From Paraburkholderia ginsengiterrae (GTDB lineage Bacteria > Pseudomonadota > Gammaproteobacteria > Burkholderiales > Burkholderiaceae), in assembly GCF_001645125.1 (NCBI RefSeq), contig NZ_LXKA01000121.1, forward strand, positions 1-64,000: a stretch of 64,000 bases of DNA. The letters are read 5' to 3'. The notes beneath the pieces are model-generated. The model searched no databases and was not told the DNA's origin. It saw only the letters and a program-made list of their open reading frames with translations. How positions within the stretch are numbered: position 1 is the first letter of the stretch; every line of letters starts with the position of its first letter. A program made the position numbers and the translations under genes. Positions 4,685 to 46,076 of this stretch are shown here, piece after piece.

Positions 4685-7171
4685 ATGCTCGTGATCGACA
4701 CACATCCGGCGGGGCAGGCCGCAGTACTGCCACTGACCCAGCATTGCCGCGCGGACGACAACCCGATTGTCGTGCCGCCTGCGAGCCGCATCGCGTTGCT
4801 CGGACCTATGCGTATTGAGCGCGGCGATAGCGTCGTTGCGCTGAAGTATCACAAGTCGCGCGCGCTGCTCGCATGGCTGGTCTCGCAACCGGGGGCCGCG
4901 CATTCGCGCGACTGGCTCGCCGAATTGCTATGGCCGGGCGAGGAGCCGGGCAGTGGCAGGCGCAAGCTCAAACGTGTGCTGTTCGACGTGAAGGCGGCGC
5001 TCGGTGAAGCTTGCTTCGAGATTCATCGCGACCTGCTGAGCCTGAGACCCGATGCGTTGACGTGGGTGGATGTGCACGCGCTGTCGGCGGCAGTCGGCGA
5101 GCTTCCGCCCGACGACCGGCTCGCCGGGGCCGCGGCGCTTGCTCCGCTCGCGCAACTCGAAGCGCTGTCGCAAACGGCCGAACTCTATCGCGGCGAATTC
5201 CTCGCCGATATCCAGATCGACGACGCGGGCGAATTCGAGCGCTGGATGGAAGCGCGCCGCGTCGCCTACCGTTACGCAATTGCGCGCCTGCGCCGCTTCC
5301 TCGCCGCAGGGCTCGCGCAGCACGGCGAGTTCGTGCGCGCGGCGACGCATGCACGCCGCTTGACGGCCGACGAGCCTTGGGACGAATCCGGCTGGCAACT
5401 GCTGATCAGCATACTGATGCGCGACGGCCGCCGGGCCGAAGCGCGCGCCGAACTCGAACACTGCCGCGCCGCGCTCGACGCACCGCCGCATCGCGACACG
5501 CTTGCGCTCGTCGAAATGCCGGCCCGCGCGGTCGCGCCCATGTTCGCGCAGACGGCGGAGCGCCGCCTGATCACCGTTGCCTATTGCCAGCTCACGGTGC
5601 CGCGCTGCGACGATCCAGACGGCTGGGCCGCCGCGCTCGTTGCGCCGCGCAAGCGCTGCGAAGGGATCCTGCAGGCAGCCGGCGCCTTTGTCGTGCATGC
5701 GCCGGCCGGTGGCCTGTTCGCCTACTTCGGTTTCCCCGTCACGCATGAAGGCGCGGTTCGCCAGGCAGTGACCGCCGCGCTCACGTGCTGCGCGTCCGTA
5801 GGCGCAGAAGGTGGCTTACGCGAGCGGACCGGCGTCGCGATTTCGTTCGGTATCCATACCGGATTGACGCTCAGCGCGGTGCATGAGAACCAGCCGGATC
5901 TCGGTTGCAGGCTGACGCGCATCGTCGGCTTGCTGGCCAACAGCGCGCGCGCCGGTGAAGTGCTGATCAGCGACGCCACCGCGCGGTTGCTGCCGGAATG
6001 CGATTTTCGGGCCGTGCGGCAGGTATTCGTGAGCGATGCGTCCACGGGGGAACGCGTGGAAGCGCTGCTGGCGATGCCGCTCGACGCCATGCCGCCCGGT
6101 GACGAGCGCAACCCGCTGATCGGACGCGACGCGCAACTGACGCAACTGGACCAGGCGCTGCGCCAATGCGCCGAGCTGTCGATGCGCGCGCTCGTCATAA
6201 CCGGCGACGCGGGGATGGGCAAGTCGTCGCTCGTCCGGCATTTCGTGAAGAGCCGGGGCCTCGACGCCGTCGAACTGCGCTGCCGCCCGGAATTCGCCGC
6301 GACGCCGTTTCATCCGTTCCGTCATTGGGTCCGCCGTCTCGCCAGGCCGCAAACCGCTCGCGCCGTGGCCGCCCGCGAGACGCTCAGCGAGAGCCTCGAC
6401 ACGCTCGCCAACGAGCTGCTGACGCTGCTCGAACCCGATTCACCGCAGATCGAAGCGCTGGTGAATCAGCTACTCATCCTGCTCGACGACACTGTGCCGG
6501 AAGGCGGCCTCATCTGTCTCGACGACGCGCAATGGGCCGATCCGGGCACCGCGCAAGTGATCGCACGCCTGATGGAAGCGCCTTTGCATCATCGTTTGCC
6601 CGTGATCGTCGGGCGCGACGATTTCGCCGCGCCGTGGATGGCCACGACCGCCGTCGCGCGAATCCAGGTGAAGCCGCTGTCGCCCGAGGCCAGCCTGGAG
6701 TTGCTCGCCGTGCTGACACAGGGCGCCGCGCTCGAAACGGATACGGAGGCGCTCATCGCGCAACGCGCGGACGGCGTGCCGCTCTATCTGATGGCGCTCG
6801 CCGAAGCGGCAGCCGACGTGGAGCGCGAATCGGCCCATGTGGTTCCGCCATGCCTGCATGAATTGCTGATGGGACGCATCGACGCCGTGGGCGTCGCCAA
6901 ACCGCTCGCTCAGTTCGCGGCGGCCAGCGGCCGCGACTTCACCGTGCCGTTGCTCGCCGAGGTGGCGGGCTGCAGCGCCGCCGAGATCGAGCCGCTTCTC
7001 ACCACGTTGCTGCAGGCACGGCTGATCGTCGCGACGGGCGCCGGCTGTTATGCGTTCCGTCATCCGATGCTGCGCGAAGCGGCGTATCAGTCGCTCTCGC
7101 GCGAGCGGCGGCAATGGGTGCATCAGCGCGTCGCCGGCGCGCGGCTCGCACTGGAAGGTAAAACAGCCTGA
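4685..7171 (+). CDS. SARP-like transcriptional activator with BTAD, degenerate cyclase and AAA ATPase domains
   Basis: An 828-residue multidomain regulator. Residues ~35-110 form an OmpR/SARP-type winged helix (LLGPMRI..., HSRDWLAELLWPG, RRKLKRVLFDVKAAL). Residues ~120-270 form the helical bacterial transcriptional activator domain. Residues ~295-450 resemble a class III nucleotide cyclase, but the metal-binding Asp positions are replaced (ITVAYCQLT; APAGG instead of a GDG loop), so it should be catalytically dead. An AAA/STAND-type ATPase follows, with a Walker A GDAGMGKSS at ~507-515 and CLDDAQWAD as Walker B. In SARP activators the N-terminus binds heptamer direct repeats next to the -35/-10. 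Matching repeats occur upstream of the next operon and of the T6SS operon, making this the best candidate activator. Confidence 0.85.
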   Translation: MLVIDTHPAGQAAVLPLTQHCRADDNPIVVPPASRIALLGPMRIERGDSVVALKYHKSRALLAWLVSQPGAAHSRDWLAELLWPGEEPGSGRRKLKRVLFDVKAALGEACFEIHRDLLSLRPDALTWVDVHALSAAVGELPPDDRLAGAAALAPLAQLEALSQTAELYRGEFLADIQIDDAGEFERWMEARRVAYRYAIARLRRFLAAGLAQHGEFVRAATHARRLTADEPWDESGWQLLISILMRDGRRAEARAELEHCRAALDAPPHRDTLALVEMPARAVAPMFAQTAERRLITVAYCQLTVPRCDDPDGWAAALVAPRKRCEGILQAAGAFVVHAPAGGLFAYFGFPVTHEGAVRQAVTAALTCCASVGAEGGLRERTGVAISFGIHTGLTLSAVHENQPDLGCRLTRIVGLLANSARAGEVLISDATARLLPECDFRAVRQVFVSDASTGERVEALLAMPLDAMPPGDERNPLIGRDAQLTQLDQALRQCAELSMRALVITGDAGMGKSSLVRHFVKSRGLDAVELRCRPEFAATPFHPFRHWVRRLARPQTARAVAARETLSESLDTLANELLTLLEPDSPQIEALVNQLLILLDDTVPEGGLICLDDAQWADPGTAQVIARLMEAPLHHRLPVIVGRDDFAAPWMATTAVARIQVKPLSPEASLELLAVLTQGAALETDTEALIAQRADGVPLYLMALAEAAADVERESAHVVPPCLHELLMGRIDAVGVAKPLAQFAAASGRDFTVPLLAEVAGCSAAEIEPLLTTLLQARLIVATGAGCYAFRHPMLREAAYQSLSRERRQWVHQRVAGARLALEGKTA

Positions 7172-7191
7172 AATCCGTTGCCGGCAAGCAC

Positions 7192-7224
7192 GGGAACGTT
7201 TCGGAAACGCGGTCTTCCCATGAT
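7192..7224 (+). promoter_or_regulatory. SARP-type heptamer repeats and -10 for the TPS/kinase operon
   Basis: GGGAACG (7192-7198), four bases, then GGAAACG (7203-7209): two heptamers 11 bp apart start-to-start. After nine further bases comes CATGAT (7219-7224), matching TATAAT at four of six positions. No TTGACA-like -35 is present, as expected of an activator-dependent promoter where the activator covers the -35. It points toward tpsB, leaving a leader of about 110 bases. The same arrangement recurs at 22336-22368 and, on the other strand, at 22201-22169. Confidence 0.6.
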
Positions 7225-7339
7225 GATGGCAACTCGCTGAAATGCGGCGCCAAGGCGCCTCGCTCAGCGAGTCGCAAGCATGGGGGCGTTGCGCATCGCA
7301 CGCAAAAGACACAACAAGGACCGTCCGGGTTTCCATCCA

Positions 7340-9091
7340 ATGCCACTTTTCCTGTGCAGGACGACGACACGCTTTCACGTGTTGCATCGCACAGCCTTGC
7401 TGACGGCTGGCCTGTGCGCCGCATCCACGGGATTCGCGCAGACGCCGCCCACTTCCGGTCAGCTGATGGAGGCGACCAAGCCGCAGCCCCAGGTGCCGCC
7501 GGCCGATCCCAACGTGATCGTGAAGCCGCCGGAGGCGCCGCCCGCGCCGAAGGTGGAAGCCCCCGATTTGCGCTTCACGCCGCAAGGCTTCCGCTTTACC
7601 GGCAACACGGTGATCTCCAGCGAAGAGCTGACCGCCTTGCTCGCGCCGTATGCGTTTCACGAAGTCGACCTCGACGGCCTGAATGAGATCGTCGACAAGG
7701 TAAAGGCCTTCTATCGCCAGCGCGGCTACTTTCTCGCGGTGGCCTTTCTGCCGAAGCAGAATATTTCGGATGGCGTAGTAACCATCGGCATTCTCGAGGG
7801 AAGGCTGGGCAAGATCACGGTCAAGCATCCGTATCCGGCGAACGCGCTCGTCACCGAGGATCAGGTGCTGGGCATGCTGCACGCGCGCCTGAAAGAAGGC
7901 GACATCATCACGGAGCAGTCGGTTGAAACACCGCTGCTGCTGATTCGCGATCTGCCCGGCGCGGTGATCCGTTCCACGCTCAATCGCGGCGCACAGGTGG
8001 GCACGGCCGATCTCGAAGTGGAAGTGTTGCCCGAGAGGCCGAAGCGGATCACCGGCGACGTCGAGGTGGACAACTACGGCAATCGCTATGCGGGTGCGTA
8101 CCGGCTGGGCGTAAAGAGCAGTCTGGTGAGTCCGCTCGGCATTGGCGACCTGCTGTCGGTGCAGGGCTTCATTACCAACCAGAACCTGACGGACTTCGGC
8201 GACGTTAGCTATCTCGTGCCGGTGGGGCATCTCGGCACGCGGGTCGGCGTCGACTACGGGCGGCTCAATTATTCACTCGGCAAGGAGTTCGCCGATCTGA
8301 ACGCGCGCGGCACGGCGGACGTGGTCAACCTGTTCGTGCTTCACCCGATCGAGCGCAGCAAGGACGTCAACCTGTTCGCCCAGGTCGGGCTGACCTACGA
8401 AAAGCTCGACGACGTGCAGAGCAACGCACCGGTGCAGCAGAAGAACATTGCCGGCATCAAGGCGCAGGTGAACGGCGATTCGCGCGGTACAGGCTTCGTC
8501 AACGTCTTCACCGCGGGTGTGATGTTCGGCACGCTCAGTTTCGGCAGCGACGCCGAAAAGGCCGACGACTCCAGCGTGAACGGCTACCACACGCAGGGCT
8601 TCTTCACGAAGTTCTACGGCGACTACGAGCGGCTTCAGCAGCTTGCGCCGAATGTCGCGCTGTTTTTCTCCCTATCAGGCCAGGCCGCGACGAAGAACCT
8701 GACCGCCGCGGAGAAGTTTTCGCTAGGTGGTGCCAATCGGGTGCGTGGCTATCCCGAAGTCGAGGCGCTCGGCGACGACGGCTTCGCCAGCACGCTTGAG
8801 TTGCGCTACACGGTGCCGGGTGTGCATTTCGCCGGGGGCGGTCTGGTGCTGACGGGCTTCTTCGACTTCGGCTACATCCTCGCGAACGCGAAGCCGGGCG
8901 ATGCGCCGCAACTCGATGCAGGGCAGCCGAACAGCGAGCGCCTGCTCAGTTACGGCGTCGGCCTGAACTTCGGCGAGCCGAACAAGTACTTGTTCCGCAC
9001 CAGCATCGCCTGGCGCGGCGGCAGGAAACCGACCTCCGACACGCATGACAACGTGCCGAGAGTCTGGGTGCAGTACGTGCAGTTCTTTTGA
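7340..9091 (+). CDS. Two-partner secretion outer-membrane transporter TpsB (FhaC/ShlB family)
   Basis: A 583-residue Omp85-superfamily porin that exports the TpsA protein encoded next. A signal peptide (basic start, ALLTAGLCAASTGFA) is followed by a Pro-rich linker. A POTRA domain follows near 75-150 (TPQGFRFTGNTVISSEEL), then a second periplasmic region and a C-terminal beta-barrel. VRGY at ~468-471 is the conserved L6-loop motif of FhaC-type transporters, and the chain ends in Phe (VQYVQFF) as barrel proteins do. An in-frame ATG at 7280 would place 20 charged residues before the signal peptide, so 7340 is preferred even though its ribosome-binding site is poor. The cognate TpsA begins 36 bases downstream. 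Confidence 0.92.
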   Translation: MPLFLCRTTTRFHVLHRTALLTAGLCAASTGFAQTPPTSGQLMEATKPQPQVPPADPNVIVKPPEAPPAPKVEAPDLRFTPQGFRFTGNTVISSEELTALLAPYAFHEVDLDGLNEIVDKVKAFYRQRGYFLAVAFLPKQNISDGVVTIGILEGRLGKITVKHPYPANALVTEDQVLGMLHARLKEGDIITEQSVETPLLLIRDLPGAVIRSTLNRGAQVGTADLEVEVLPERPKRITGDVEVDNYGNRYAGAYRLGVKSSLVSPLGIGDLLSVQGFITNQNLTDFGDVSYLVPVGHLGTRVGVDYGRLNYSLGKEFADLNARGTADVVNLFVLHPIERSKDVNLFAQVGLTYEKLDDVQSNAPVQQKNIAGIKAQVNGDSRGTGFVNVFTAGVMFGTLSFGSDAEKADDSSVNGYHTQGFFTKFYGDYERLQQLAPNVALFFSLSGQAATKNLTAAEKFSLGGANRVRGYPEVEALGDDGFASTLELRYTVPGVHFAGGGLVLTGFFDFGYILANAKPGDAPQLDAGQPNSERLLSYGVGLNFGEPNKYLFRTSIAWRGGRKPTSDTHDNVPRVWVQYVQFF

Positions 9092-9127: not shown

Positions 9128-12100
9128 ATGCTGGGTGATAACGGACCGGTGCGCCGTTCCGACCGCTTCTGTGGAGCAAGCCGCCACCGCGCGAGGACCG
9201 CCTCGACGGCGCTGCTGCTGCTTGCGTGCGTGCAGTTGCTGGTCGCTTCGGCCGGCTTCGCACAGAGCTTGCCCACGGGCGGAAAAGTCGTCTCGGGCAG
9301 CGCGACGGTAACGCAGCCCAACGGCCAGCAACTGCTGATCAACCAGGGCAGCAACAACGCGATCATCAACTGGACGAGCTTTTCGATCGGTCACGGCAAT
9401 AGCGTCACGTTCGTGCAACCGGGGGCGAATTCCGTGGCGCTCAATCGCGTGATTGGCGCGTCGCCGTCGGCGATCTACGGCAGCCTGAGCGCAAACGGCA
9501 AAGTCTTTCTGGTGAATCCCGCGGGCGTGCTGTTCGCGCCGGGGGCATCGGTCAACACGGGCAGTTTCGTGGCGTCCACGCTCGGCATTTCCGACAGCAA
9601 TTTTCTGGCCGGCCGCTACACATTCCAGAACGGCGGCGCGGCGGGCGGCATCGTCAATCAGGGCAGCGTGAACGCGCGTGACGGCGCCGTGGTGTTCATC
9701 GCTCCGCAGATCGTCAACGCGGGCAGCATCCGCGCGACCTCGGGCGTGGCGCTCGCGGCGGGCGACCGCGTCAGCATGACGCTCGACGCCGACAGTCCGC
9801 TCCTCCTGAGCGTCGATGCGAGTGCGCTCAAGGCAAGCATCGTCAATAGCGGGACCATCTTCTCCGGCGGCCCGGTGATGCTGAGCGCTCAGGCGCGCGA
9901 CAGCGCACTCGACACCGTGATCAACAGCAGCGGCGTGATACGCGCGGCATCGATCAGTTCGGATGGCGAAGATATTCAGCTCAACGGCGGCGCGCAAGGC
10001 ATCGTGTCGTTGAGCGGCACGCTCGATGCGAGTGGCTCGGGTGCGCACGGCCATGGCGGCAGCATCGCGGTGAGCGGCGATCAGTTGACGCTCGCCGGCA
10101 CGGCGCGGCTCGATGCGTCGGGCGCGGCCGGCGGGGGCACGATTCTCGTCGGCGGGGCGGCGCACGGCGCGGGGCCGTTGCAGAATGCGTCGACCACCAC
10201 CATCGCGCAAGGGGCGGTGCTCGATGCCAGCGCCACCGGCCAGGGCAACGGCGGGCAGGTCGTGGTCTGGTCCAATGACAGCACGCGCTTTGCCGGACAG
10301 ATCGTCGCGCGCGGCGGCGCGGACGGCGGCAATGGCGGTAACGCGGAAGTATCGAGCAAGGGCGCGCTGATCTTCGAGGGCACGGCGGATCTAAGCGCGT
10401 CTGATGGCCGGCGCGGCACGCTGCTGCTCGACCCGGACGATCTGTGCATCGTCTCGGCGGCCGACGCCACTTGCGGTGCTGCGGCGACGGGCACCGGCAC
10501 GGGCGGCGCGACCTTCAACAGCGCAGGCGGCTCCTACGTGCTGTCGTCGACACTGGCGACGCTTTCGACAACGGCCAATCTGGTGCTGCAAGCCACCCAC
10601 GACATCATCTTCAAGACGAACCTGTCGCTCGCGGCGTCGACTTCGGCGTCGAACGGATCGATCCAGATCACGGCGGGCAACGCGATTCAGATGAACGGCA
10701 ATTCGCTCTCTACCAGCGGCGGCAATATCCTGATGACGGCCGGCTCGGGCGGCATGACGCTGGGCAATCTGACGGCCGGTTCGGGGACGATCACGATGGG
10801 CCTGACGGATGCGAACGGGGTTATTACGCAGACGGCCGGCACGTCGATTTCGGGGGCAAGCACGCTGGTGTTCAACGGTGGGACGTTGCAGTTGAGCCAG
10901 GCGAACAGTTATAGCGGCGGGACGACGGTGCAGGGCGGAACGCTGGCTTTGAGCGGCAGCGGCACCGCGGGCGCGGCGGGTGGCGCGATCACGGTCGATG
11001 CCGGTGGGGCGCTCGATGTGCAGAACACGCTTCCCAATGCGGTGACGCTCGCAGGCGGCACGCTGGAGACAACTACAGGCAACGGCTTCGTGAATGGCGC
11101 GGTGACGTTGAATGGCAGCAGCACACTCGCGGCGGGCAGCACTGGCGTGCTGACGGTAAACGGCGATGTGGGCGGCAGCGCGGGATCGGGCGGATTGAAT
11201 GTGGGCGGCACGGGCACGGTGGTGCTGACCGGGACGAATTCCTATACCGGCGGCACGACGCTCGCAAGCGGCAGCACGCTGAGCGGCAATACGGACAGCC
11301 TGATCGGCAACTTCACGAACAACGGTACGCTGGTTTTCAATCAGTCCTCGAACGGCGGCTACAGCGGCACGATCACCGGCACAGGCTCGGTCGTGAAACA
11401 GAACACCGGCACGCTCACGCTGAGCGCGGCACAGAGCTATACCGGTGGCACGAACGTCGTAGGCGGCGTATTGCAAGGTGACAGCAGCAGCCTGCAAGGC
11501 AACATCACGCTCACGGGCGCAACGGGACTGGTGTTCGATCAGTCCTCAAACGGCACGTTCAGCGGCGCGATTGGTGGCACCGGCGCCGTCACGAAACAGA
11601 ACACCGGCACACTGACTTTCGACACCGCGCAGATTTACACCGGCGCCACGAACGTGACAGGCGGAACGCTAGCCTTGACCAGCAGCGGAACAGCCGGTAC
11701 CGCGGCGAGCGCGATCAGCATCGGCAGTGGCGCGGCGCTGGATGTGCAGAACACGCTTCCAAATGCGGTGACGCTGTCGGGCGGCACGCTGGAGACAACG
11801 ACGGGCAACGGCGTCGTGAATGGCACGGTGACGTTGAATGGCAGCAGCACGCTCGCGGCGGGCAGCACCGGCGTGCTGACGGTGAACGGCGTTGTGGGCG
11901 GCAGTGCGGGATCGGGCGGATTGAATGTGGGCGGCACGGGCACGGTGGTGCTGACCGGGACGAATTCCTATACCGGCGGCACGACGCTCGCAAGCGGCAG
12001 CACGCTGAGCGGCAATACGAACAGCCTGATCGGCAACTTCACGAACAACGGCACGCTGGTTTTCAATCAGTCCTCGAACGGCGGATACAGCGGCACGATC

Positions 12101-15100
12101 ACCGGCACCGGCTCGGTCGTGAAGCAGAACACCGGCACGCTCACGCTGAGCGCGGCACAGAGCTATACCGGTGGCACGAACGTCGTCGGCGGCGTATTGC
12201 AGGGCGACAGCAGCAGCCTGCAAGGCAACATCACGCTCACTGGCGCAACGGGACTGGTGTTCGATCAGGCCTCGAACGGCACGTTCAGCGGCGCGATTGG
12301 CGGCGCCGGCACCGTCACGAAACAGAACACCGGCACACTGACCTTAGACACCGCGCAGATTTACACGGGCGCCACGAACGTGACAGGCGGAACGCTCGCG
12401 CTGACCAGCAGCGGAACAGCCGGTACCGCGGCGAGCGCGATTAGCGTCGGCAGTGGCGCGGCGCTGGATGTGCGGAACACGCTTCCCAATGCGGTGACGC
12501 TCGCGGGCGGCACGCTGGAGACAACGACAGGCCACGGCTTCGTGAATGGCACGGTGACGTTGAATGGCGGCAATACGTTCTCGGTGGCGAACAACGCGAC
12601 GCTGACCGTGAATGGTGTCGTCGGCGACGGCACGACGGCGGGGGTGCTGGCTGTGAACGGCACGGGTACGGTGGCGCTCACCGGCCCTAACACATACAGC
12701 GGCGGCACGAACGTCAATGGCGGCACATTGGCGCTGACCGGCAGCGGCACAGCGGGAGCATCGAGTGGCGCCATCACGGTTGGCATCGGCGCGGCGCTGG
12801 ACGTGCAGAACACGCTGGCCAATGCGGTGACGCTGTCGGGTGGGACGCTGGAGACGACGACAGGCAGCGGCGTCGTGAATGGAGCGGTGACGCTGAATGG
12901 CGGCAATACGTTCTCGGTGGCGAACAACGCAACGTTGACAGTCAACGGCATCGTCAGCGATGGCACGACAGCAGGTGCGCTAACAGTCGTCGGCGTGGGT
13001 ACGGTGGCGCTAACCGGTCTCAACTCCTATAGCGCCGGCACGAACGTCAACGGCGGGACACTGGCGTTAAGCGGCAACGGCACGGCGGGTGCGCCGGGCG
13101 GGGCGGTTGCGGTGGCTAGCGGCGCGGCGCTGGATGTGCAGAACACGCTGGCCAATGCGGTGACGTTGTCTGGCGGCACCCTGGAGACAACGACCGGCAA
13201 CGGCGTAGTCAACGGAGCGGTTGCATTGAACGGCAGCAGCACGTTCGCGGCGGGCAACGGCGCGGTGTTGACGGTGAATGGCGTCGTGAGCGGCAGCACG
13301 CCATCGAGCGGACTGAACGTGAGTGGTACCGGCAAGGTGGTGCTGAACGGCTTGAACACCTATACCGGTGACACAACGCTCGCGAGCGGCAGCACGCTCC
13401 AAGGCAATACGGGCAGCCTGAGCGGTACCGTTACGAACAACGGCACGCTGGTTTTCAATCAGGCATCGAACGACACGTTCAACGGCACGATCAGCGGCAC
13501 CGGTGCGGTCACGAAGCAGAACGCTGGCACACTGACCTTCAACACCGCGCAGGGCTATAGCGGCGGCACGGCGATCACAGGCGGCACGCTGGCTGTCACG
13601 GGCGCGGGGACTGCGGGTACAGCGGGCGGTTCGATTAACGTCGGCAGTGGCGCAGCGCTAGATGTGCAGAACACGCTCCCCAACGCCGTGACGCTCGCAG
13701 GCGGCACGCTGGAGACAACGACCGGCAGCGGCGTCGTGAATGGCGCGGTGACGTTGAACGGCAGCAGCGCGTTCGCAACGGGCAGCGGTGCTGTGCTGAC
13801 GGTGAACGGCAACGTGAGCGGCAGCACGCCGTCGAGTGGTCTGAACGTGAGCGGTACCGGCACGGTGGTGCTGACCGGGTTGAACACCTATAGCGGTGGC
13901 ACGACACTCGCGGGCGGCACGCTGCAAGGCAACACGAACAGCCTGCAGGGCGTCATTACGAACAACGCGTCGCTGGTATTCGATCAGGCCTCGAATGGCA
14001 CGTTCATCGGAGCGATTGGCGGCAGCGGTACGGTCACGAAACAGAATGCGGGCACCCTGACTTTCGACACCGCGCAGAATTACAGCGGCGGCACAACCAT
14101 CACCGGCGGCACGCTGGCGGTCACGGGCGCGGGCACGGCGGGCGCTGCAGGCGGATCGATCAACGTTGGCGGCAGCAGCACCTTGGACGTGCAGACCACT
14201 CTCGCCAACGCAGTGAATCTCGCGGGCGGCACACTGGAGACAACCACCGGCAGCGGCGTAGTGAATGGCGCTGTGACGCTGAACGGCAGCAGCACGTTCT
14301 CGACGGGCAGCGGCGCGGTGTTGACGGTGAACGGCATCGTTAGCGGCAGCACGCCGTCGAGCGGATTGAACGTGACTGGTACCGGCACGGTAGTGCTGAC
14401 TGGCCTGAACGCCTATGGCGGCGGCACGACGCTTGCAGGCGGCACATTGCAAGGCAACACGAACAGTCTGCAGGGCATCATCACGAACAACGCGTCGCTG
14501 GTTTTCGATCAGGCGACGAACGGTACCTTCAGTGGCGCGATCAGCGGCAGCGGTACGGTCACGAAGCAGAACGCGGGGACCCTGACTTTCAACAGCGCGC
14601 AGAACTACAGCGGCGGCACCGCCATCACTGGCGGCACGCTGGCGGTCACGGGCGCGGGCACGGCGGGCACAGCGAGCGGTTCGATCAGCGTCGGCAGCGG
14701 CGGTGCGCTGGACGTGCAGACCACACTGGCGAACGCGATGACGCTGTCGGGCGGCACATTGGAAACCACGACCGGCACCGGAGTGGTCAATGGATCCGTG
14801 ACATTGAACGGCAGCGGCACGTTCTCAGCGAGCAGTGGCGCCGTGCTGGCTGTGAACGGCGTGGTAAGCGGTGCGACGCCATCGAGCGGACTGAACGTGA
14901 GTGGTGCCGGCACTGTGGTGCTGAACGGACTGAACACCTATGCCGGCGGCACGACACTCGCAAGCGGCGGCACGCTGCAAGGCAACACCGCCAGTCTGCA
15001 CGGCGGCATCGCGAACAGCGGGTCGCTGATATTCAATCAGGCGGCTAACGGCACATTCAGCGGCACGATCAGCGGCAACGGCACGGTCACGAAAGTGAAC

Positions 15101-22168: not shown

Positions 22169-22201
22169 AGGATAGAAAGTGCACGTTGCCATGACGTTTC
22201 C
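22169..22201 (-). promoter_or_regulatory. SARP-type heptamer repeats and -10 for the gene at 21323-22021
   Basis: Read on the minus strand: GGAAACG (22201-22195), TCAT, GGCAACG (22190-22184), nine bases, then TATCCT (22174-22169), four of six to TATAAT. Period and spacing equal those of the T6SS promoter 135 bases away on the opposite strand. It predicts a leader of about 140 bases before the AGGAGG-preceded ATG at 22021, and supports treating 22022-22282 as non-coding. Confidence 0.5.
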
Positions 22202-22335: not shown

Positions 22336-22368
22336 GGAAACGTTTGGGAAACGCATCCTCTCAATAAT
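22336..22368 (+). promoter_or_regulatory. SARP-type heptamer repeats and -10 for the T6SS operon
   Basis: GGAAACG (22336-22342), TTTG, GGAAACG (22347-22353): two perfect heptamers at 11-bp period. Nine bases later AATAAT (22363-22368) matches TATAAT at five of six positions. Transcription would start near 22375, about 20 bases before tssA. No -35 hexamer is visible at the normal distance, consistent with activator dependence. Confidence 0.65.
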
Positions 22369-22397
22369 TCACCCCACAATCCTACCAAGGGGTGAAC

Positions 22398-30406: not shown

Positions 30407-30478
30407 GGCCGCCGCCTTCCATGAAGCGATGCAGAACCTTTCCCGCAACCTGAGCAACCCCACGCTCACGAGGAACTC

Positions 30479-33151: not shown

Positions 33152-33174
33152 TTTGACCAAGGAGCGAGGCAATC

Positions 33175-33564: not shown

Positions 33565-33573
33565 AGGCGACGC

Positions 33574-35559: not shown

Positions 35560-35565
35560 CCCGTC

Positions 35566-37940: not shown

Positions 37941-38017
37941 CACGCATCGGTTGTGCCAGATAATCAGGAAACCGAACGTATTCGCTAATCGACGCCTAAC
38001 TGGAGTCACCACACGCG

Positions 38018-39352
38018 ATGTCCTGGAACAACAAAGTCATCTGGTCCGAGGGGATGTTTCTGCAACCGCAGCATCTCCAGCAGCACGACCGCTATCTGCA
38101 CGCGCTGGTCGAGTCGCGCGCGGCGGGGCTCAGGCCCTACGGCTGGGGCTTTACGACGCTCAGGCTCGACGACGCGCAGCTCGCGCTCGGCAAGCTGGCG
38201 ATTCGCGAGTGCGCGGGCGTGCTGCCCGACGGCACGCCGTTCGCGTTGTCCGCCGACGATGCGCCGCCGCCCGGCATCGACATTCCCGACGACGCCCGCA
38301 ACGCGCTGGTCGTGCTGGCATTGCCGGTGCGCCGCGCGGGCATACCGCGCGCCGCCGCCGCGCCCGCGGCTGACAGCTTCGCGCGCTACGGCACGGTCGA
38401 ATACGAAGTGACCGACAGCAACGCCGACGGCACCGGTGCCGCGCTCCTGCAGATCGGCAAGCTGCGCCTGAGGCTCGCGTTCGAATCCGAAGTGGTGAAC
38501 GCGCACGCGTGCCTCGGCGTCGCGCGCGTGATCGAGCGGCGCGCCGATAACCAGATCGTGCTCGATGCCGACTACGCACCACCTTGTCTGGACTTCCGCG
38601 TGGCGCCACGGCTCGCCGCTTTCGCCGATGAATTCACGGGCCTCCTGCGCCAGCGCGGCGAAGCGCTCGCGAGCCGGCTCACGGCGCCGGGCACTGGCGG
38701 CGCGGCGGAGATTCAGGACTTCCTGCTGTTGCAACTCATCAATCGCGCCGAGCCGCTGGTGAGCCATCTCGCGACGATGACGGGCCTGCATCCCGAGGAA
38801 CTGTATCGCGTGGCCGTGGCGCTGGCGGGCGAATTGTCCACCTTCTCGCAAGCGGGCAAACGGACCGCGCAGTATCCCGTGTACCGCCATGACCGGCTGG
38901 CAGACACCTTCATGCCGGTGATCGCCGATCTTCGGCAGTCGCTCAGCATGGTGATGGATTCGGCCGTCGTGCCGATTCCGCTCGAAGCCCGCAAGTTCGG
39001 CGTGCATGTCGCGGTCGTGGCCGACACGGAGCTGCTCCGATCCGCCACTTTCGTGCTGGCCGTCAACGCACAGATGCCCGCGGAAACGGTGCGCAACAGC
39101 TTCATGCAGCAGGTCAAGATCGGGCCGGTCGAAAGGATCCGCGACCTCGTCAATCTGCAGCTTCCCGGCATCGCGCTGCGCGCGCTGCCGGTCGCGCCCC
39201 GGCAGTTGCCGTTTCATGCCGGCTTCACGTACTACGAGCTCGACCGCGGCAACGATCTGTGGAAGCTGCTGCCGACCTCGGCAGGCTTCGCGATGCACGT
39301 GGCCGGGGATTTTCCAGGCCTGCAGCTGGCGCTCTGGGCCATCAGGAGGTAG
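38018..39352 (+). CDS. tssK: T6SS baseplate-membrane connector TssK (ImpJ)
   Basis: A 444-residue TssK with the invariant opening NKVIWSEGMFLQPQHLQQHDRYLHALVESRA. The PYGWGFTTLRLD segment follows, and LLQLINRAEPLVSHLATMTGLHPEELYRVAVALAGELSTFS lies in the helical middle. Trimeric TssK resembles phage receptor-binding proteins and joins the baseplate to TssL/TssM. The 77-base gap before it holds no recognised terminator. Confidence 0.97.
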   Translation: MSWNNKVIWSEGMFLQPQHLQQHDRYLHALVESRAAGLRPYGWGFTTLRLDDAQLALGKLAIRECAGVLPDGTPFALSADDAPPPGIDIPDDARNALVVLALPVRRAGIPRAAAAPAADSFARYGTVEYEVTDSNADGTGAALLQIGKLRLRLAFESEVVNAHACLGVARVIERRADNQIVLDADYAPPCLDFRVAPRLAAFADEFTGLLRQRGEALASRLTAPGTGGAAEIQDFLLLQLINRAEPLVSHLATMTGLHPEELYRVAVALAGELSTFSQAGKRTAQYPVYRHDRLADTFMPVIADLRQSLSMVMDSAVVPIPLEARKFGVHVAVVADTELLRSATFVLAVNAQMPAETVRNSFMQQVKIGPVERIRDLVNLQLPGIALRALPVAPRQLPFHAGFTYYELDRGNDLWKLLPTSAGFAMHVAGDFPGLQLALWAIRR

Positions 39353-39358
39353 CCGATC

Positions 39359-40699
39359 ATGAGTCGAGACGACATGGCCGCGGAGCAGGCCGCCACCTTT
39401 CTGGTGCCGCGTCCCGGCGGCAAGGGCGCCGCGCCCAACGCCAACACCCCCAACCCGGCGCCGGAAGCGCCGCCTGCGCCGACCTCGCGGCATGCGCCGG
39501 CTGAAGTGCCCATGTCCGGCGCGATCCACACCAGCGGGATCAATCCGCTGCTGCGCGCGGCCAACCCGTTGCTCGATCTGATCGTGCCGCTGCGCCATAT
39601 GTCGACGCACTCCGATCTGGAAGACCTGCGCCAGCGCCTGGTGGACGGCGTGCGCCGGTTCGAGAGCGAGGCGCGCGAGGCCAATCCAGGTCTCGAAGCG
39701 TTGTCGGCCGCGCGTTACGCGCTGTGCACGTTCCTCGACGAGACCGTGTCGAGCACACCGTGGGGCGGTGGCGGCGCGTGGTCGGGGCGCAGCCTGCTGA
39801 TCCTGTTTCATAACGAGGCGTCGGGCGGCGAGAAGTTCTTTCTGATCCTGCAACGGCTTGCACAGGACCCGCGCGCGAACCTCGACGTGCTCGAACTGAT
39901 GTACGTCTGTCTCGCGCTCGGCATGGAAGGGCGCTACCGCCTGATCGAAGGCGGCCGCGCGCAACTCGACGTCCTGCGCGAACGGCTGCTGGCAATGATT
40001 CGCGAACGACGCGGACCGGTCGAGCGGGACCTGTCGCCGCATTGGCAAGGCGTCGTCGACAAGCGCAATCCGCTGATGCGCCTGCTGCCGCTGTGGGTGC
40101 TCGCCGCACTGACCGGCGTGATCCTGATGGCGCTGCAACTGGCGTTCTCGATCAGCCTGAACCGCGCGTCCGACCCGGTGTTCGCCGCCTTGCACGGCGT
40201 CAAGACCGCGGTTGCCGAACCCGCGGCTCTGCGCAAGGCGGTGCCGTCCATCGAGCCCGCCAAGCCGCGTCTTGCGGCGTTCCTCGCACCGGAGATCGCC
40301 CAAGGGTTGGTTAGCGTGGCCGATTCGCCCGGCAAGTCGGTCATCACGTTGCATGGCGACGGCATGTTCAGTTCCGGCAGCGCGGATGTATCGAGCGGTT
40401 TCTATCCGCTGCTCAACCGGATCGGCGATGCGTTGAAGACGGTGCCCGGGCGCGTGGTGGTCGCAGGGCATACGGACGATCAGCGCATCGTGTCGGCGCG
40501 CTTTCCGTCGAACTGGCATCTGTCGCAAGCGCGGGCCGAGGCGGTCAAGCAGGTGCTCGCCGCCCGCACAGGTACGCCCGATCGCTTCGTAGCAGAAGGG
40601 CGCGGCGACACCGAGCCGCTCGTGCCGAACGACAGCGCCGCGAACCGCGCGCGCAACCGGCGTGTGGATGTGACGGTCTTTGCATCGGGGGCGCCGTGA
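39359..40699 (+). CDS. tssL: T6SS inner-membrane protein TssL with OmpA-type peptidoglycan-binding domain
   Basis: A 446-residue evolved TssL/DotU. A cytoplasmic hook domain (NPLLRAANPLLDLIVPLRHM...ARYALCTFLDETVSSTPWG...GGEKFFLILQRLAQDP) is followed by one transmembrane helix (~243-265, LWVLAALTGVILMALQLAFSI). The periplasmic OmpA-like domain has VVVAGHTDDQRI, LSQARAEAVKQVL and AEGRGDTEPLVPN...RNRRVDVTV. The domain should anchor the membrane complex to peptidoglycan without a separate TagL. Confidence 0.97.
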   Translation: MSRDDMAAEQAATFLVPRPGGKGAAPNANTPNPAPEAPPAPTSRHAPAEVPMSGAIHTSGINPLLRAANPLLDLIVPLRHMSTHSDLEDLRQRLVDGVRRFESEAREANPGLEALSAARYALCTFLDETVSSTPWGGGGAWSGRSLLILFHNEASGGEKFFLILQRLAQDPRANLDVLELMYVCLALGMEGRYRLIEGGRAQLDVLRERLLAMIRERRGPVERDLSPHWQGVVDKRNPLMRLLPLWVLAALTGVILMALQLAFSISLNRASDPVFAALHGVKTAVAEPAALRKAVPSIEPAKPRLAAFLAPEIAQGLVSVADSPGKSVITLHGDGMFSSGSADVSSGFYPLLNRIGDALKTVPGRVVVAGHTDDQRIVSARFPSNWHLSQARAEAVKQVLAARTGTPDRFVAEGRGDTEPLVPNDSAANRARNRRVDVTVFASGAP

Positions 40700-40751
40700 A
40701 CGCGGCATGCGCAGTGTCTTTTTCGTTCCACCTTTCGCCGGGTCATCTGTC

Positions 40752-43700
40752 ATGAAACGACTCTTTAGCTGGCTGACCCGGGCTTGGGTGCTCGCGTTCT
40801 TCGGCGCGCTCGCGCTGTCGCTGATAGTCTGGATAGATGGGCCGCTCGTGGCGTTCAACGGGCATGCGCCGCTCGAATCCGCGTCGAGCCGTTTGACCTT
40901 GATCGCGATTATTTTCGTGCTGTGGGCCGGGTTCTTTATCGTCAAATGGCTGATTGGAAGGCTGGCCAATCTGAAGCTCATGCAGAGCGTGGCGGCTCAG
41001 CCTGCTGCGGCTGCCGATGCCGATGCCGCAAACGCGGCGGGTGCGGCGGGCGCTTCGACGCCCGGCAACACACGCACGAGTGCCGAAGTGGCGGCACTCA
41101 ACCAGCGCTTCCAGGAAGCGCTCGCCGTGTTGCGCCAGGCGCGCGGCGGGCGCCGCTTCGGCGGCCAATATCTGTATCAGACGCCGTGGTACATGTTCGT
41201 CGGCGCGCCGGGTGCCGGCAAAACGACCGCGCTGGTCCATTCGGGCCTGAAATTTCCGCTCGCCGACAAGTTGGGCAGGGAGGCGATTCGCGGCATCGGC
41301 GGCACGCGCAACTGCGACTGGTGGTTCACCGACGAAGCCGTGCTGCTCGACACGGCAGGCCGCTACACCACGCAAGACAGCGATAGCGAAGCCGACAAGG
41401 CGGCGTGGACCGGCTTCCTGCAACTGCTGAAGAAGTACCGTCGGCGCCGGCCGATCAACGGCGTGATCGTCGCCGTGTCGGTGGCCGATCTGTTGCGGCA
41501 GACCGAGGCCGATCGCAAGCAGCAGGCGCAGTCCATTCGCGAGCGGATCAAGGAGTTGCACGAGCGCCTCGGCATCCGCTTCCCCATTTATGTGCTGGTC
41601 ACCAAGTGCGATCTGCTGGCGGGTTTCGTCGAGTTCTTCGACGACCTTGGCCGCGATGAACGCGCGAGCGTGCTGGGCATGACGTTTCCGGTGGCCGAGG
41701 CGGCCAGCGTGGATCAGCTGCTGAGTGCGTTCCCCGCCGAATTCGATGCGCTGGAAGCGCGTTTGCAGACGCGTGTGCTCGATCGTCTGCAAGCAGAGCG
41801 GGACGTTCGGCGGCGCGCGTTGATCTATGGTTTTCCGCAGCAACTGGCGTCGTTGCGCGATCTGCTGGGCGGCTTTCTGGGCGACGTGTTCCAGTCGAGC
41901 CGCTACGAGGAAAACGCGTTGTTGCGCGGCGTGTATTTCACGAGCGGCACGCAGGAAGGCAGCCCGATCGATCGCGTGATGGGCGCGCTCGCGGCGAGCT
42001 TCGGCGTCGACCGTCAGGTGCTGGTCGCGAATACCGCGAGCGGCCGGAGCTATTTCATCACGCGGCTGTTGCGCGACGTGCTGTTCCAGGAGTCGGGCCT
42101 CGCGGGCGCGGACCTGCGCGTCGAGCGCCGTCGCGCATGGCTGCAGCGAGGTGCTTGGGTGCTGGCCGCGGTGCTGATCTTGTTGGTTGCGGCCGGTCTC
42201 ATCACGAGTTATGTGAGGAACAAGGCTTATGTGAACGAGGTGTCGTTGCAGGTCGCGTCGATCGATGCGCAGGCGCGCAACCTCGTACCCGACGCGGGCG
42301 TGGCGAGCGTGCTGCCGCTGCTCGATGCGGCCCGTGCGATACCCGGCGGTTACGCGGACCGTATGGGCGGTGCGCCGTTTCTGATGACCATGGGCCTGTA
42401 TCAAGGCGACAAGCTCGGCTCGGCCGCGCAAGCGCTGTATCAGCGGCTGTTGCGTCAGACGCTGCTGCCGCGCCTCGTCGGCCGTCTCGAGGACCAACTG
42501 CGGCGTGGCGATGCCAACAATCCGCAGTACCTGTACGAGACGTTGCGGGTCTACCTGATGCTGGGCGATCCGCGCCATTTCGACGCCGACTCGGTGGCGG
42601 GCTGGGCCGATTACGACTGGAGCCGCAATCTCGCCGGCCGTCTGACCGACGACCAGCGCAAGGATTTGTCCGCGCACATGGCCGCGCTGCTCGAGCATGT
42701 CGAGGACGACGGCCCGGTGACCCTCGACGGCGATCTGGTTGCCTCGACGCGCGCGGCGCTCGCGCGGGTTCCGCTGCAACAGCGGGTCTATGCGTCGCTG
42801 CTGCGCGGTCTGCAACGCACGGGTTTGCCGGACGTGTCGCTGGCGAGCGCGGCCGGACGGGACGCGGCGCTCGTGTTCGTGCGCAAGAGCGGCGAACCGT
42901 TGACGCGCGGTGTGCCGGGGCTCTATACCCGCGATGGCTACCGGCAGTTCCTCGCGCATCGCGATCTCGCGGTGGCCGGTGTCGTCAAGGACAACTGGAT
43001 TCTCGGCAAGGACGAGGCAGTCACCGATCCCGCGGCGATCGAGCAATTGAATGCTCAGGTTCTCGAACTGTATTACGACGACTATATCCGGCGCTGGGAC
43101 GCGTTTCTGTCCGATGTCGGCATTGTGCCGTTCCGCGATCTCGATCAGGCGGCGCGGGTGGTGAACCTGCTCGCGCAGCCCACCTCGCCGCTGAAAAAAT
43201 TCCTCGTCACGGCTACCAACGAAACCACGCTCTCCGGCGTGAAGCAGGGGAGCCTCGTCGACTCGGCGAAAAGCAAGCTCGACAGCGTCAAGCAGAAACT
43301 CGAGAGCGCGCTCGCTTCCGCCGACGACGCCGCGCCGGCCACCGCGGCCGCGCCGGTGCAGAATCCGGTCGATCTGCATTTCGAGGCCCTGCATCAAATG
43401 GCGGCGGCGGGCGCGGGCGGCGTGTCACCGCTGGATGCACAACTTGCTTCGCTTAACGAAGTATTCGTCTACCTCGATGCCGCCAACACCGCGAGGCGTC
43501 AGGGCGCGCCCGCGCCGGCGTCGGATGCGCTGACGAAGCTGAAGCAGGGCGCCGAAGGCAAACCCGCGCCGCTCGCCGCCATGCTGACGGGGGTGGCGGA
43601 TTCGGGTTCGTCGCTGACGCTCGGCAGCGAACGCGGCAGGTTGAGTTCGCTATGGATCGCGAATGTAGCGTCGTTCTGCCATCAGGCCATCGACGGCCGT

Positions 43701-44339
43701 TATCCGCTCGTGCGCAACGCGGCGGATGCCGTGACCCAGGAAGACTTCGGCCGCGTGTTCGCGCCGGGCGGGTTGATCGACGACTTCTTCCAGCACAATC
43801 TGCTGCCGTACGTCGACACGTCGAGAACGCGCTGGACATGGCGTCCGTTCGGCAACGTGTCGCTCGGCATTCCGGACGATGTACTCGCGCAGTTCCAGCG
43901 TGCCGCGAAGATCCGCGATGCGTTCTTCGCGGGCGGCGGCAAGATGGCCTCGGCGCGCTTCGAGCTGAAGCCTGTCACGATGGACCCCGCCGTCACGCAA
44001 TTTACGCTGGATCTCGACGGGCAGACGCTCACTTACGGCCACGGCCCGACGCGTTCGACGGCGTTCCAGTGGCCGGGCGGCAAGGTGTCGAGCACGGTGC
44101 GCGTCGACTTTGCGCCGCCGGGCGCGGCGGGCACGAGCGGCTACTCGACGGACGGCCCGTGGGCATGGTTCAGGATGATCGACAAGGGCGTGCTGGAGCC
44201 GACCGCGCAGCGCGACCGCTATAACCTGACGCTGGATCTGGACGGCCGGAAGGTCACGCTCGAGCTGCGCGCGAGCAGCGTAGTGAATCCGTTCAACCTC
44301 GACGCGCTGACCCAGTTCCGCTGTCCGGCAAAGCTATGA
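40752..44339 (+). CDS. tssM: T6SS inner-membrane protein TssM (IcmF/ImpL)
   Basis: A 1195-residue IcmF protein. Two N-terminal transmembrane helices (~8-30 and ~45-65) are followed by a cytoplasmic GTPase-like domain with an intact Walker A GAPGAGKTT (~153) and DTAGRY. A third helix (~468-490, WVLAAVLILLVAAGLITSYV) leads to a long periplasmic domain ending in the VasK-type C-terminus that contacts TssJ. Starts at 40680 and 40707 are possible, but MKRLFSWLTRAW at 40752 is the usual beginning. Its stop overlaps the tagF start in ATGA. Confidence 0.96.
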   Translation: MKRLFSWLTRAWVLAFFGALALSLIVWIDGPLVAFNGHAPLESASSRLTLIAIIFVLWAGFFIVKWLIGRLANLKLMQSVAAQPAAAADADAANAAGAAGASTPGNTRTSAEVAALNQRFQEALAVLRQARGGRRFGGQYLYQTPWYMFVGAPGAGKTTALVHSGLKFPLADKLGREAIRGIGGTRNCDWWFTDEAVLLDTAGRYTTQDSDSEADKAAWTGFLQLLKKYRRRRPINGVIVAVSVADLLRQTEADRKQQAQSIRERIKELHERLGIRFPIYVLVTKCDLLAGFVEFFDDLGRDERASVLGMTFPVAEAASVDQLLSAFPAEFDALEARLQTRVLDRLQAERDVRRRALIYGFPQQLASLRDLLGGFLGDVFQSSRYEENALLRGVYFTSGTQEGSPIDRVMGALAASFGVDRQVLVANTASGRSYFITRLLRDVLFQESGLAGADLRVERRRAWLQRGAWVLAAVLILLVAAGLITSYVRNKAYVNEVSLQVASIDAQARNLVPDAGVASVLPLLDAARAIPGGYADRMGGAPFLMTMGLYQGDKLGSAAQALYQRLLRQTLLPRLVGRLEDQLRRGDANNPQYLYETLRVYLMLGDPRHFDADSVAGWADYDWSRNLAGRLTDDQRKDLSAHMAALLEHVEDDGPVTLDGDLVASTRAALARVPLQQRVYASLLRGLQRTGLPDVSLASAAGRDAALVFVRKSGEPLTRGVPGLYTRDGYRQFLAHRDLAVAGVVKDNWILGKDEAVTDPAAIEQLNAQVLELYYDDYIRRWDAFLSDVGIVPFRDLDQAARVVNLLAQPTSPLKKFLVTATNETTLSGVKQGSLVDSAKSKLDSVKQKLESALASADDAAPATAAAPVQNPVDLHFEALHQMAAAGAGGVSPLDAQLASLNEVFVYLDAANTARRQGAPAPASDALTKLKQGAEGKPAPLAAMLTGVADSGSSLTLGSERGRLSSLWIANVASFCHQAIDGRYPLVRNAADAVTQEDFGRVFAPGGLIDDFFQHNLLPYVDTSRTRWTWRPFGNVSLGIPDDVLAQFQRAAKIRDAFFAGGGKMASARFELKPVTMDPAVTQFTLDLDGQTLTYGHGPTRSTAFQWPGGKVSSTVRVDFAPPGAAGTSGYSTDGPWAWFRMIDKGVLEPTAQRDRYNLTLDLDGRKVTLELRASSVVNPFNLDALTQFRCPAKL

Positions 44340-45064
44340 ACGCCACGTTCGATACACCCGGTTTCTTCGGCAAGGCGGTCACGCATGGGGACTTTCTGTC
44401 GCGCCGCTTGCCCGCCGATTTTCTCGACGCCTGGGACGAGTGGCTACAGCGCGGGCTGCACGCGAGCCGTCAACGTCTGCGTGAAACCTGGCTGGCTGCG
44501 TATCTGACCAGTCCTGTATGGCGTTTCGCGGTGGGACGGCATGTGTGTGGCGAACGGGCGTGGGCAGGCGTGATGATGCCTGGCATGGACCGCGTCGGGC
44601 GCTATTTTCCGTTGACTATAGCCGCGGGCTGCGACGCGGAATTCGATCTTGCGGACTGGCTCGGTGTGAGCGGTGCGTGGTACGACCGTCTCGAAGAACT
44701 TGCACGTTCGACGCTCGACGAACGATTTCAGGTCGATGCGCTCGACGCGTCGCTTGAAGAGTTGATCGCGCCTGCCGTGCTGATGGCAAGCGACGTCTAC
44801 GCCGCGTTGTGCTACCCGCTCGGATCGATTTCGAACGACATGCTCACCGAAGCCGCTCGCAAGCTGACGCTGGATCAGGCCGCTTCAGGCTTGCGTCGAC
44901 GCAGTTGCTGGTGGAGCGAGGGCGCCGAGTCGGCCGGATGTGTGCTGCTGTCGTGTCCCGGACTGCCCGATGAGCAGCGCTTCTGCGCGCTCATCGACGC
45001 GGGATGGCAGGAGTCCGGTTGGCGTGTGTTGAGCGAAGAGAGGGCGTTGCCGCCGGCCTGGTGA
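44336..45064 (+). CDS. tagF: T6SS-associated regulator TagF (ImpM)
   Basis: A 242-residue TagF/ImpM: FFGKAVTHGDFLSRRLPADFLDAWDEWLQRGL, SPVWRFAVGRHVCGERAWAGVMMPGMDRVGRYFPLTIAA and a C-terminal CWWSEGAESAG segment. TagF is a post-translational brake on T6SS assembly in species with a threonine-phosphorylation pathway, by sequestering the FHA protein. It is the last gene of the operon, translationally coupled to tssM and convergent with the phosphatase gene 26 bases away. Confidence 0.94.
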   Translation: MNATFDTPGFFGKAVTHGDFLSRRLPADFLDAWDEWLQRGLHASRQRLRETWLAAYLTSPVWRFAVGRHVCGERAWAGVMMPGMDRVGRYFPLTIAAGCDAEFDLADWLGVSGAWYDRLEELARSTLDERFQVDALDASLEELIAPAVLMASDVYAALCYPLGSISNDMLTEAARKLTLDQAASGLRRRSCWWSEGAESAGCVLLSCPGLPDEQRFCALIDAGWQESGWRVLSEERALPPAW

Positions 45065-45090
45065 ACTGGCAAGGTGTCAGCGTCCCGGCG

Positions 45091-46029
45091 CTACGCGTCG
45101 AACCACACCAGCACGACGGTGACGTTGTCCTTGCCGCCGTGCTGCTTGGCAAGCTCCACGAGTTGCGCGCTGCACGCGGCGAGCGACTCCGGCGCGGTTT
45201 GGCGCAACACGTCGGCGATCTGGTTGTCGGCGAGCATGCCGTGCAGACCGTCCGAGCACAGCAGATAAAGATCGCCAGGCCTCGCGGTGAGACGGTGCAC
45301 CTCCGGCTCCACCAGCGGCGACGGACCGATGGCCTGCAGCAACTCGTTGCGTGCCGGCAGATTGATGGTGATGCCCGCTTCGAGCGCCTGCTGATAGAGC
45401 GTCTGATCGCGTGTGATCTGCAGCATGCGGCCCTCGCGCCAGCGGTACAGGCGGCTGTCTCCGACATGAAACGCCACCATCGTCGCCGTGTTCGGCTGGC
45501 GCCAGAGGCCGGTCATGGTCGTGCCCATGCCGCGCCCGTCCGCGCGCCTGTCGCTGAGGTTCATTGCATACAGATGGTCGTTGACGTGTTCGACCGCGCG
45601 CGTTGTGGCGGTGACCACCGGGTGCGGTGCCTGCGGCGCGGTGCCGTCGGACTTGACCGAATAGCGGCCGGGCAGGGTGGCGTCCGGGTCCTCGCGCGGG
45701 CCGGACGCAAACGCGTGCGGGTCGAGTTCCGCGATGCATTGATGCATCAGCACCAGCGCCTCGGCACTGGCGACTTCGCCGGCATCGTGACCGCCCATGC
45801 CGTCGCAGACGATGGCGAGGCCAAGCGCTTCGTCGATCAGGAAACCGTCTTCGTTGTTGCGGCGCACGAGTCCAATGTCGGACAGGCCGAATGCATAGCC
45901 CGTGGCGAGCCGGTAGGTCTGACTGGACGAAGTGGCTTTCAAGTGGGTCGTGGCGGTTGTGCTTCGATTCAGTGCGCGGCCATAAAGGCGGACGTAGCGA
46001 AAAACACCGTATTTCAGGCCATTATCCAT
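45091..46029 (-). CDS. pppA: PP2C-family Ser/Thr phosphatase (PppA/Stp-like)
   Basis: A 312-residue PPM/PP2C phosphatase with the metal-binding motifs SDIGLVRRNNEDGF, VCDGMGGHDAGEVAS, MGTTMTGL, LLCSDGLHGML and GKDNVTVVLVW, so it should be active. About 45 residues precede the fold. The expected role is to reverse PpkA phosphorylation of TagH and shut the T6SS down. It is the only T6SS gene on the minus strand, tail-to-tail with tagF and separately transcribed; a heptamer pair lies 30 bases upstream of its start, but in the opposite orientation. Confidence 0.93.
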   Translation of the reverse strand: MDNGLKYGVFRYVRLYGRALNRSTTATTHLKATSSSQTYRLATGYAFGLSDIGLVRRNNEDGFLIDEALGLAIVCDGMGGHDAGEVASAEALVLMHQCIAELDPHAFASGPREDPDATLPGRYSVKSDGTAPQAPHPVVTATTRAVEHVNDHLYAMNLSDRRADGRGMGTTMTGLWRQPNTATMVAFHVGDSRLYRWREGRMLQITRDQTLYQQALEAGITINLPARNELLQAIGPSPLVEPEVHRLTARPGDLYLLCSDGLHGMLADNQIADVLRQTAPESLAACSAQLVELAKQHGGKDNVTVVLVWFDA

Positions 46030-46058
46030 GAACCCTTACCGGCGTCAACTTAGGACCC

Positions 46059-46076
46059 GGAAACGCTTGGGGAACG
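46059..46076 (+). promoter_or_regulatory. Heptamer pair upstream of the phosphatase gene
   Basis: GGAAACG (46059-46065), CTTG, GGGAACG (46070-46076): the same 11-bp spacing as at the other three sites. Relative to pppA it is reversed, and nine bases after it only TAGGGT is found, a poor -10. It lies inside an imperfect inverted repeat (GGACCC 46053-46058 with GGGTCC 46079-46084). It may be an operator acting differently, or chance. Confidence 0.4.

Follow-up and report, generated by a model that had tools for sequence, protein, structure and literature searches.

A SARP-LAL-type regulator and conserved heptamer pairs point to a type VI secretion regulon in Paraburkholderia

RESULTS

A regulator gene lies beside an exoprotein unit and a T6SS cluster

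The window analysed here, a 64,000-nucleotide stretch of DNA from the soil bacterium Paraburkholderia ginsengiterrae, holds the gene for an 828-amino-acid regulator of the SARP-LAL type, a transporter and exoprotein unit, and a type VI secretion system (T6SS) cluster, and it carries four pairs of GGAAACG-like heptamers next to these genes. SARPs are familiar chiefly from actinomycetes, where they switch on antibiotic genes. A preliminary description of this DNA had proposed that the regulator controls its neighbours through the paired heptamers, and the sequence comparisons reported here support that interpretation overall.

The regulator gene (4685..7171, plus strand) was identified by Pfam and profile searches and has 78-80% identical orthologs in four genomes. 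It is followed on the same strand by tpsB (7280..9091), which by Pfam encodes a ShlB/FhaC-type outer-membrane transporter and in which, by our own reading, an in-frame ATG at 7340 agrees with the start in the orthologs. Next come genes for a 3165-amino-acid exoprotein (9128..18625, plus), for a small protein with a sub-cutoff Sel1 repeat (18622..19071, plus), whose start codon appears to overlap the tpsA stop, and for a Ser/Thr protein kinase with a Sel1 repeat (19084..21234, plus; Pfam), by spacing the last of the tpsB transcription unit. Gaps between these four genes do not exceed 36 bp, so they may form one transcript. We refer to the exoprotein as a putative TpsA: tpsB is adjacent and Pfam finds passenger-associated transport repeats, while the two-partner secretion signal domain was not found in Pfam at E 0.001. 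The T6SS cluster (22392..45064, plus) comprises tssA, tssB, tssC, tssD (Hcp), an ImpE-like gene, tssE, tssF, tssG, tssH (ClpV), a DUF4280 gene, vgrG, the gene for TagH (FHA), tssJ, tssK, tssL, tssM and tagF. Protein family scans find the core from TssA to TssM together with VgrG; Hcp scores above the Pfam cutoff and below that of NCBIfam. Beyond tagF, a gene in the PppA position (45091..46029, minus) encodes a PP2C-type, Stp1-like Ser/Thr phosphatase (NCBIfam E 5.2e-52, below the equivalog cutoff).

Heptamer pairs share one spacing and a fixed distance to a -10-like hexamer

The pattern GGVAACGN4GGVAACG has exactly four matches in the window, each pair 11 bp start to start and all of them where the preliminary description had placed them. 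One hundred dinucleotide-preserving shuffles of the window gave a mean of 0.00 exact pairs; with one mismatch allowed the same four pairs were recovered and no others, compared with a mean of 0.59 in the shuffles. Pair 1 (7192..7209, plus; GGGAACG-N4-GGAAACG) precedes tpsB, with the -10-like CATGAT at 7219..7224 on the plus strand, which reads CATCAT in four orthologs. Pair 2 (22184..22201, minus; GGAAACG-N4-GGCAACG) lies 180 bp from the ATG of a gene for a 232-amino-acid protein and has TATCCT at 22174-22169 on the minus strand. Pair 3 (22336..22353, plus; GGAAACG-N4-GGAAACG) lies 56 bp from the start of tssA, ahead of the complete T6SS cluster, with AATAAT at 22363-22368 (plus). Pair 4 (46059..46076, plus) is followed by TAGGGT at 46086-46091 (plus). 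A gap of nine bases from the second heptamer to the hexamer had been claimed for the first three pairs; it is found at all four.

In the whole 8.53-Mb host genome GGRAACGN4GGVAACG has eight matches and the reversed pattern one. Four of the eight are the window pairs and two lie on contig C346, in the right orientation 75-79 bp upstream of small genes, with hexamers TAAAGT and TTAAAT. The remaining two look like chance: one has the hexamer TGAGAT and its next frame 487 bp off, and the other has CGCCTT and falls inside a 263-codon open frame.

The same geometry was seen across the five genomes that carry the regulator, the host included. In a spacing control, 24 of the 66 matches to GGAAACG-N(0..20)-GGRAACG had N4 (next commonest spacing, 6). 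The -10 was judged on the 34 pairs found there by heptamers alone, because the full site pattern used below already includes part of it. An A at hexamer position 2 together with a T at position 6 occurs in 26 of these 34 pairs, where A and T contents near 0.18 each would predict about 1.1. The eight pairs that fail include TTAAAT on C346, one of two pppA-side pairs in genome G043 and the pppA-side TCATCT in G052. Since sites at orthologous genes are not independent, fewer separate events lie behind these counts than the figures suggest.

The regulator combines SARP, cyclase-like and ATPase parts

Three parts can be delimited in the regulator: a winged helix with BTAD (about residues 33-265), a class III cyclase-like region (about 288-466) and an AAA_16 ATPase (477-633). 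Pfam reports BTAD and AAA_16, with no winged-helix match of its own and no GerE match, and residues 280-821 match a TOMM kinase-cyclase family below the cutoff. With a profile of six full-length relatives, residues 288-466 match nucleotide cyclases, and the N-terminus weakly matches AfsR and EmbR (E 0.006-0.009). A profile built from 19 N-terminal sequences finds EmbR at E 8.9e-14 and AfsR at E 3.4e-12, spanning winged helix and BTAD. Consistent with the earlier claim of a SARP-like protein, these matches indicate an OmpR-type winged helix followed by BTAD, the arrangement of a SARP. The C-terminal half consists of a cyclase-like and an AAA/LAL part lacking a terminal LuxR-type helix-turn-helix, which places the full layout in the PimR class. 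The cyclase-like part is probably inactive, since the aspartates that usually bind metal seem to be missing.

Upstream of the regulator gene lies a gene for a LuxR-type regulator (3444..4484, plus), in which Pfam finds an autoinducer-binding domain just above the cutoff and a GerE domain. The gap between the two genes (4485-4684) contains, by our reading of the alignment, an inverted repeat TACAAA...TTTGTA conserved in all five genomes (orthologs L067, L069, L071 and L073). This repeat may be an operator controlling the regulator itself.

Full sites track the regulator across genomes

The preliminary description had named loss of the heptamers in orthologous clusters and frequent random occurrence in the genome as grounds against its proposal, and neither was seen. 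Outside the genome of the window, 144 genomes of the genus were searched (E 1e-60 or better); four hold regulator orthologs at 79-80% and two more a 38% relative. A scan of named genomes placed orthologs (78-79%) in two records of Paraburkholderia fungorum and in P. haematera and P. lacunae, which appear to be the same four genomes. All four orthologous clusters (G035, G037, G043 and G052) keep the pairs before tpsB, before tssA and beside pppA, the last as one pair per genome except in G043, which has two in a row. The order luxR, regulator, tpsB, tpsA, kinase, tss genes, tagF, pppA is identical in all five genomes. Searched in seven genomes, tssA has 77-81% orthologs in the four ortholog genomes beside the window's own, and only weak matches in G005 and G092.

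We then defined a full 33-bp pattern as the heptamer pair at N4, nine further bases and a -10. It occurs in 7 of 143 genus genomes: 24 sites fall in the five regulator-positive genomes, two in G005 and one in G092. The other 138 genus genomes thus contain three full sites in two genomes, and both genomes with a 38% relative are site-free. The co-occurrence of full sites with the regulator gives a Fisher p of 4.5e-8, and the reversed-pattern control yields one site. Heptamer pairs without the -10 requirement are present in 123 of the 143. A draw of 399 family genomes, which shares members with the genus set and holds three of the five regulator-positive genomes, contains seven single full-pattern sites outside the genus and no others there; five of these are one near-identical sequence in a single genus.

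Distant relatives of the regulator (36-45% identity overall) were followed in six genomes (G015, G044, G272, G174, G160 and G180), and their surroundings of roughly 20-60 kb contain no other gene of the window set at E 1e-5; the T6SS link is therefore seen in this clade only. Separately, 28 genomes of one other genus of the family (g11; loci L117-L143) carry a relative at 36-40% identity, mostly in open frames of about 1260-1340 codons. T6SS genes were not found beside it in G272 and G174, the two g11 surroundings fetched.

Heptamer pairs precede unlinked genes and, in the host genome, a gene in a variable slot

Between the kinase gene and tssA lies a variable slot, which in the host genome is occupied by the gene of the 232-amino-acid protein (21323..22021, minus), an orphan and candidate cargo with its own pair 2. 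This protein has no match in Pfam, PHROG or NCBIfam, and its relatives besides itself are two partial matches, both in one of the 143 genus genomes; plasmid searches returned no relative. An AlphaFold model had a mean predicted local distance difference test (pLDDT) score of 31 and was not used. Among the five genomes the gene and its pair were found in the host alone. In G035, G043 and G052 the slot holds other reading frames, the longest on the plus strand, without a second pair, and in G037 it is empty.

Pair 4 stands apart from the others. All four pairs had been described as lying next to the system, with orientation said to agree with the gene at pairs 1 to 3. Pair 4 is upstream of pppA, the nearest gene of the system, and oriented away from it, in a place and orientation kept in all five genomes (46059-46091 in the window; L063-L066), with a -10-like hexamer in four of the five and a poorer one in G052. 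As a gene promoter it was rejected, no conserved reading frame being present downstream in G035, G037 and G052; in the window and in G043 the next gene is about 100-150 bp away. A small RNA may be transcribed from this pair, or the pair may mark a slot that has lost its gene.

Heptamer pairs also precede small genes away from the cluster in all five regulator-positive genomes, 59-149 bp upstream of the start in the cases read; the exception, one pair in G037, has nothing ahead of it but a relative of a C346 gene in truncated form. The regulon thus appears to extend beyond what had been claimed. The tpsB unit and the T6SS stand as predicted members and unlinked genes are added to them, whereas the 232-amino-acid gene and its site are features of this genome only. 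We examined ten candidate cargo proteins, among them the 232-amino-acid protein and a G005 remnant. Nine of them scanned against PHROGs gave no match, and nine scanned against NCBIfam gave one, a CFI-box C-terminal domain in one protein. In Pfam there was one sub-cutoff deaminase match (E 0.042). By our own reading of motifs, some candidates may resemble Cys-His hydrolases or deaminases. Two candidates show a clear relationship to each other (E 2e-44) and a third a weak one (E 0.003); in plasmid searches one candidate had weak relatives in Azospirillum.

G035, G052 and G005 share a convergent pair of genes that are unlike each other and are each preceded by a box. Relatives of the first gene occur in 4 of 143 genus genomes, namely these three and, weakly, G103. 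One gene of the pair has lost its middle in G005 and the other is truncated in G035. G005 has neither the regulator nor a close tssA ortholog, and the loss there would therefore fit decay without the machine. On contig C1 of G005 (L089) a one-mismatch box with the hexamer TATGGT lies upstream of another reading frame of no recognised kind. Overall, the unlinked small genes probably encode T6SS effectors or accessory cargo, a role that rests on context because no candidate has a Pfam match above the cutoff.

DISCUSSION

We consider it probable, with a good margin of confidence, that the 828-amino-acid SARP-LAL-type protein activates a single regulon of T6SS, exoprotein and cargo genes through the heptamer pairs. 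The sites are conserved, their geometry is fixed, and they co-occur with a regulator of SARP-LAL domain layout; from this we infer that the pairs are the sites this protein would bind and activate. In the mechanism that we propose, two winged-helix/BTAD copies would sit next to each other on the two GGAAACG heptamers, offset by one helical turn, and the bound pair would cover the -35 region at promoters whose -10 elements are weak, where the regulator would recruit RNA polymerase in the manner of AfsR. The cyclase-like and AAA domains presumably receive a signal and gate activation. The tpsB-exoprotein-kinase unit, the T6SS operon and the unlinked small genes would then be switched on together, joined in the host genome alone by the cargo gene in the variable slot beside tssA.

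This proposal draws on known systems. In the available text of PMC10936776, the direct repeats of SARP sites are spaced by 11 or 22 bp and the 3' repeat lies 8 bp from the -10, compared with the gap of nine found here. AfsR of Streptomyces coelicolor (8hvr, 8jke, 8k60) resembles our regulator in its winged helix-turn-helix and BTAD, and the two 11-bp direct repeats that it binds over the -35, at a promoter with a poor -10, resemble the sites proposed here (PMC10936776); AfsR differs in having NOD and TPR parts after the SARP domain and no cyclase-like domain. A further likeness is to the SARP-LAL proteins of Streptomyces (PimR, SanG, FilR and PolR), which, in the portions of PMC3367932 and PMC10972967 available, share the SARP, cyclase-like and AAA/LAL layout and the heptamer direct repeats. 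In PimR, which unites SARP, cyclase-like and LAL parts, the heptamers bound are separated by 4-bp spacers (PMC3367932, same portion). In contrast to that group, the host here is a proteobacterium and the predicted targets are a T6SS, an exoprotein and cargo instead of antibiotic genes. The heptamer is GGAAACG and not CGGCAAG; the site of PimR, in the text available, is made of three repeats with no overlap of the -35. BTAD-type regulators have also been proposed near another contractile machine, the extracellular contractile injection system (eCIS), according to the part of PMC8213781 available; eCIS is not a T6SS, and that text gives an association only, with binding sites not described.

HilA-type activators join an OmpR-type winged helix to a TPR/BTAD-like part and control type III secretion. 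Among the best matches of a literature search for HilA with BTAD or SARP no such link appeared, and searches for SARP or BTAD with type VI secretion, secretion systems or Burkholderiales showed no SARP-controlled T6SS among their best matches, which does not establish absence in print. A text search of a T6SS-regulation review (PMC10482370) found no SARP, AfsR or heptamer. The P. fungorum genome paper (PMC7474880) lists a T6SS and TpsB, and the portion available does not mention this regulator. SARPs and T6SSs are each already known. What looks new is that the two are combined, and that a box marks unlinked genes of probable cargo.

Several observations weigh against the SARP-LAL protein as the activator at these sites. 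The best match of the 19-sequence profile is a designed TPR protein, and most of its other matches are TPR- or PPR-type and cover the BTAD part only, while EmbR and AfsR also span the winged helix. A profile of the window and its four close orthologs finds AfsR only, at E 0.0098. The AlphaFold model of the N-terminus, built from an alignment of the window and four ortholog loci, is of low confidence (mean pLDDT 60); with it, EmbR and AfsR make up the first six Foldseek matches (E 9e-4 to 3e-3, TM-scores 0.30-0.43). No heptamer pair precedes the regulator gene itself in any of the five genomes by pattern search, no conserved gene lies downstream of pair 4, and none of the ten candidate cargo proteins (0/10) scores above the Pfam cutoff. 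G005 has its two full sites even though a search at E 1e-60 finds no regulator there and tssA lacks a close ortholog; one of the two site-linked genes in G005, however, is missing its middle part. Finally, two other kinds of activator have claims of their own: OmpR/PhoB-type response regulators have a similar repeat geometry, and all five genomes also keep luxR ahead of the SARP gene.

The first of these leads to the alternative that survives best, in which the pairs are genuine promoter elements bound by an OmpR/PhoB-type response regulator and the SARP-like protein acts elsewhere. PhoB-type boxes likewise have 7-bp direct repeats, separated by 4 bp, shortly before a -10. The sites, however, track genomes with the SARP-like gene, which is adjacent and encodes a SARP-type N-terminus, and no OmpR-type response regulator was found among the window proteins scanned, which represent part of the reading frames; we regard this explanation as unlikely. 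Activation of the promoters by the neighbouring LuxR-type protein (3444-4484) we hold to be slightly less likely again: it adjoins the regulator throughout and has a GerE domain, but LuxR-type proteins usually bind inverted repeats and the pairs are direct repeats at 11 bp. The conserved inverted repeat sits instead between luxR and the regulator gene, which makes a cascade from LuxR to SARP likelier. That the pairs are chance matches or a functionless repeat family is very improbable, for although pairs lacking the -10 are widespread in the genus, those with it occur in seven of the 143 genus genomes, their positions upstream of orthologous genes are kept, the N4 spacing is preferred, and the window shuffles give none.

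Beyond activation by the SARP-LAL protein, the box may be a portable promoter through which a single T6SS gains its cargo, so that newcomers of different origin carrying GGAAACG-N4-GGAAACG-N9-TANNNT join the regulon. We offer this extension tentatively, judging it somewhat short of an even chance. If true, the box could be used in a genome-wide search for unrecognised T6SS cargo, and the changing slot beside tssA and the unlinked genes without known partners would constitute a rotating effector set under an antibiotic-type activator.

If the proposed regulon is correct, a SARP-LAL protein that runs a Gram-negative secretion machine, an exoprotein, a kinase and scattered cargo would widen the known roles of this activator class. 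The sites would offer a promoter-based listing of cargo genes missed by sequence families, and the signal that triggers the T6SS would become approachable through one regulator gene.

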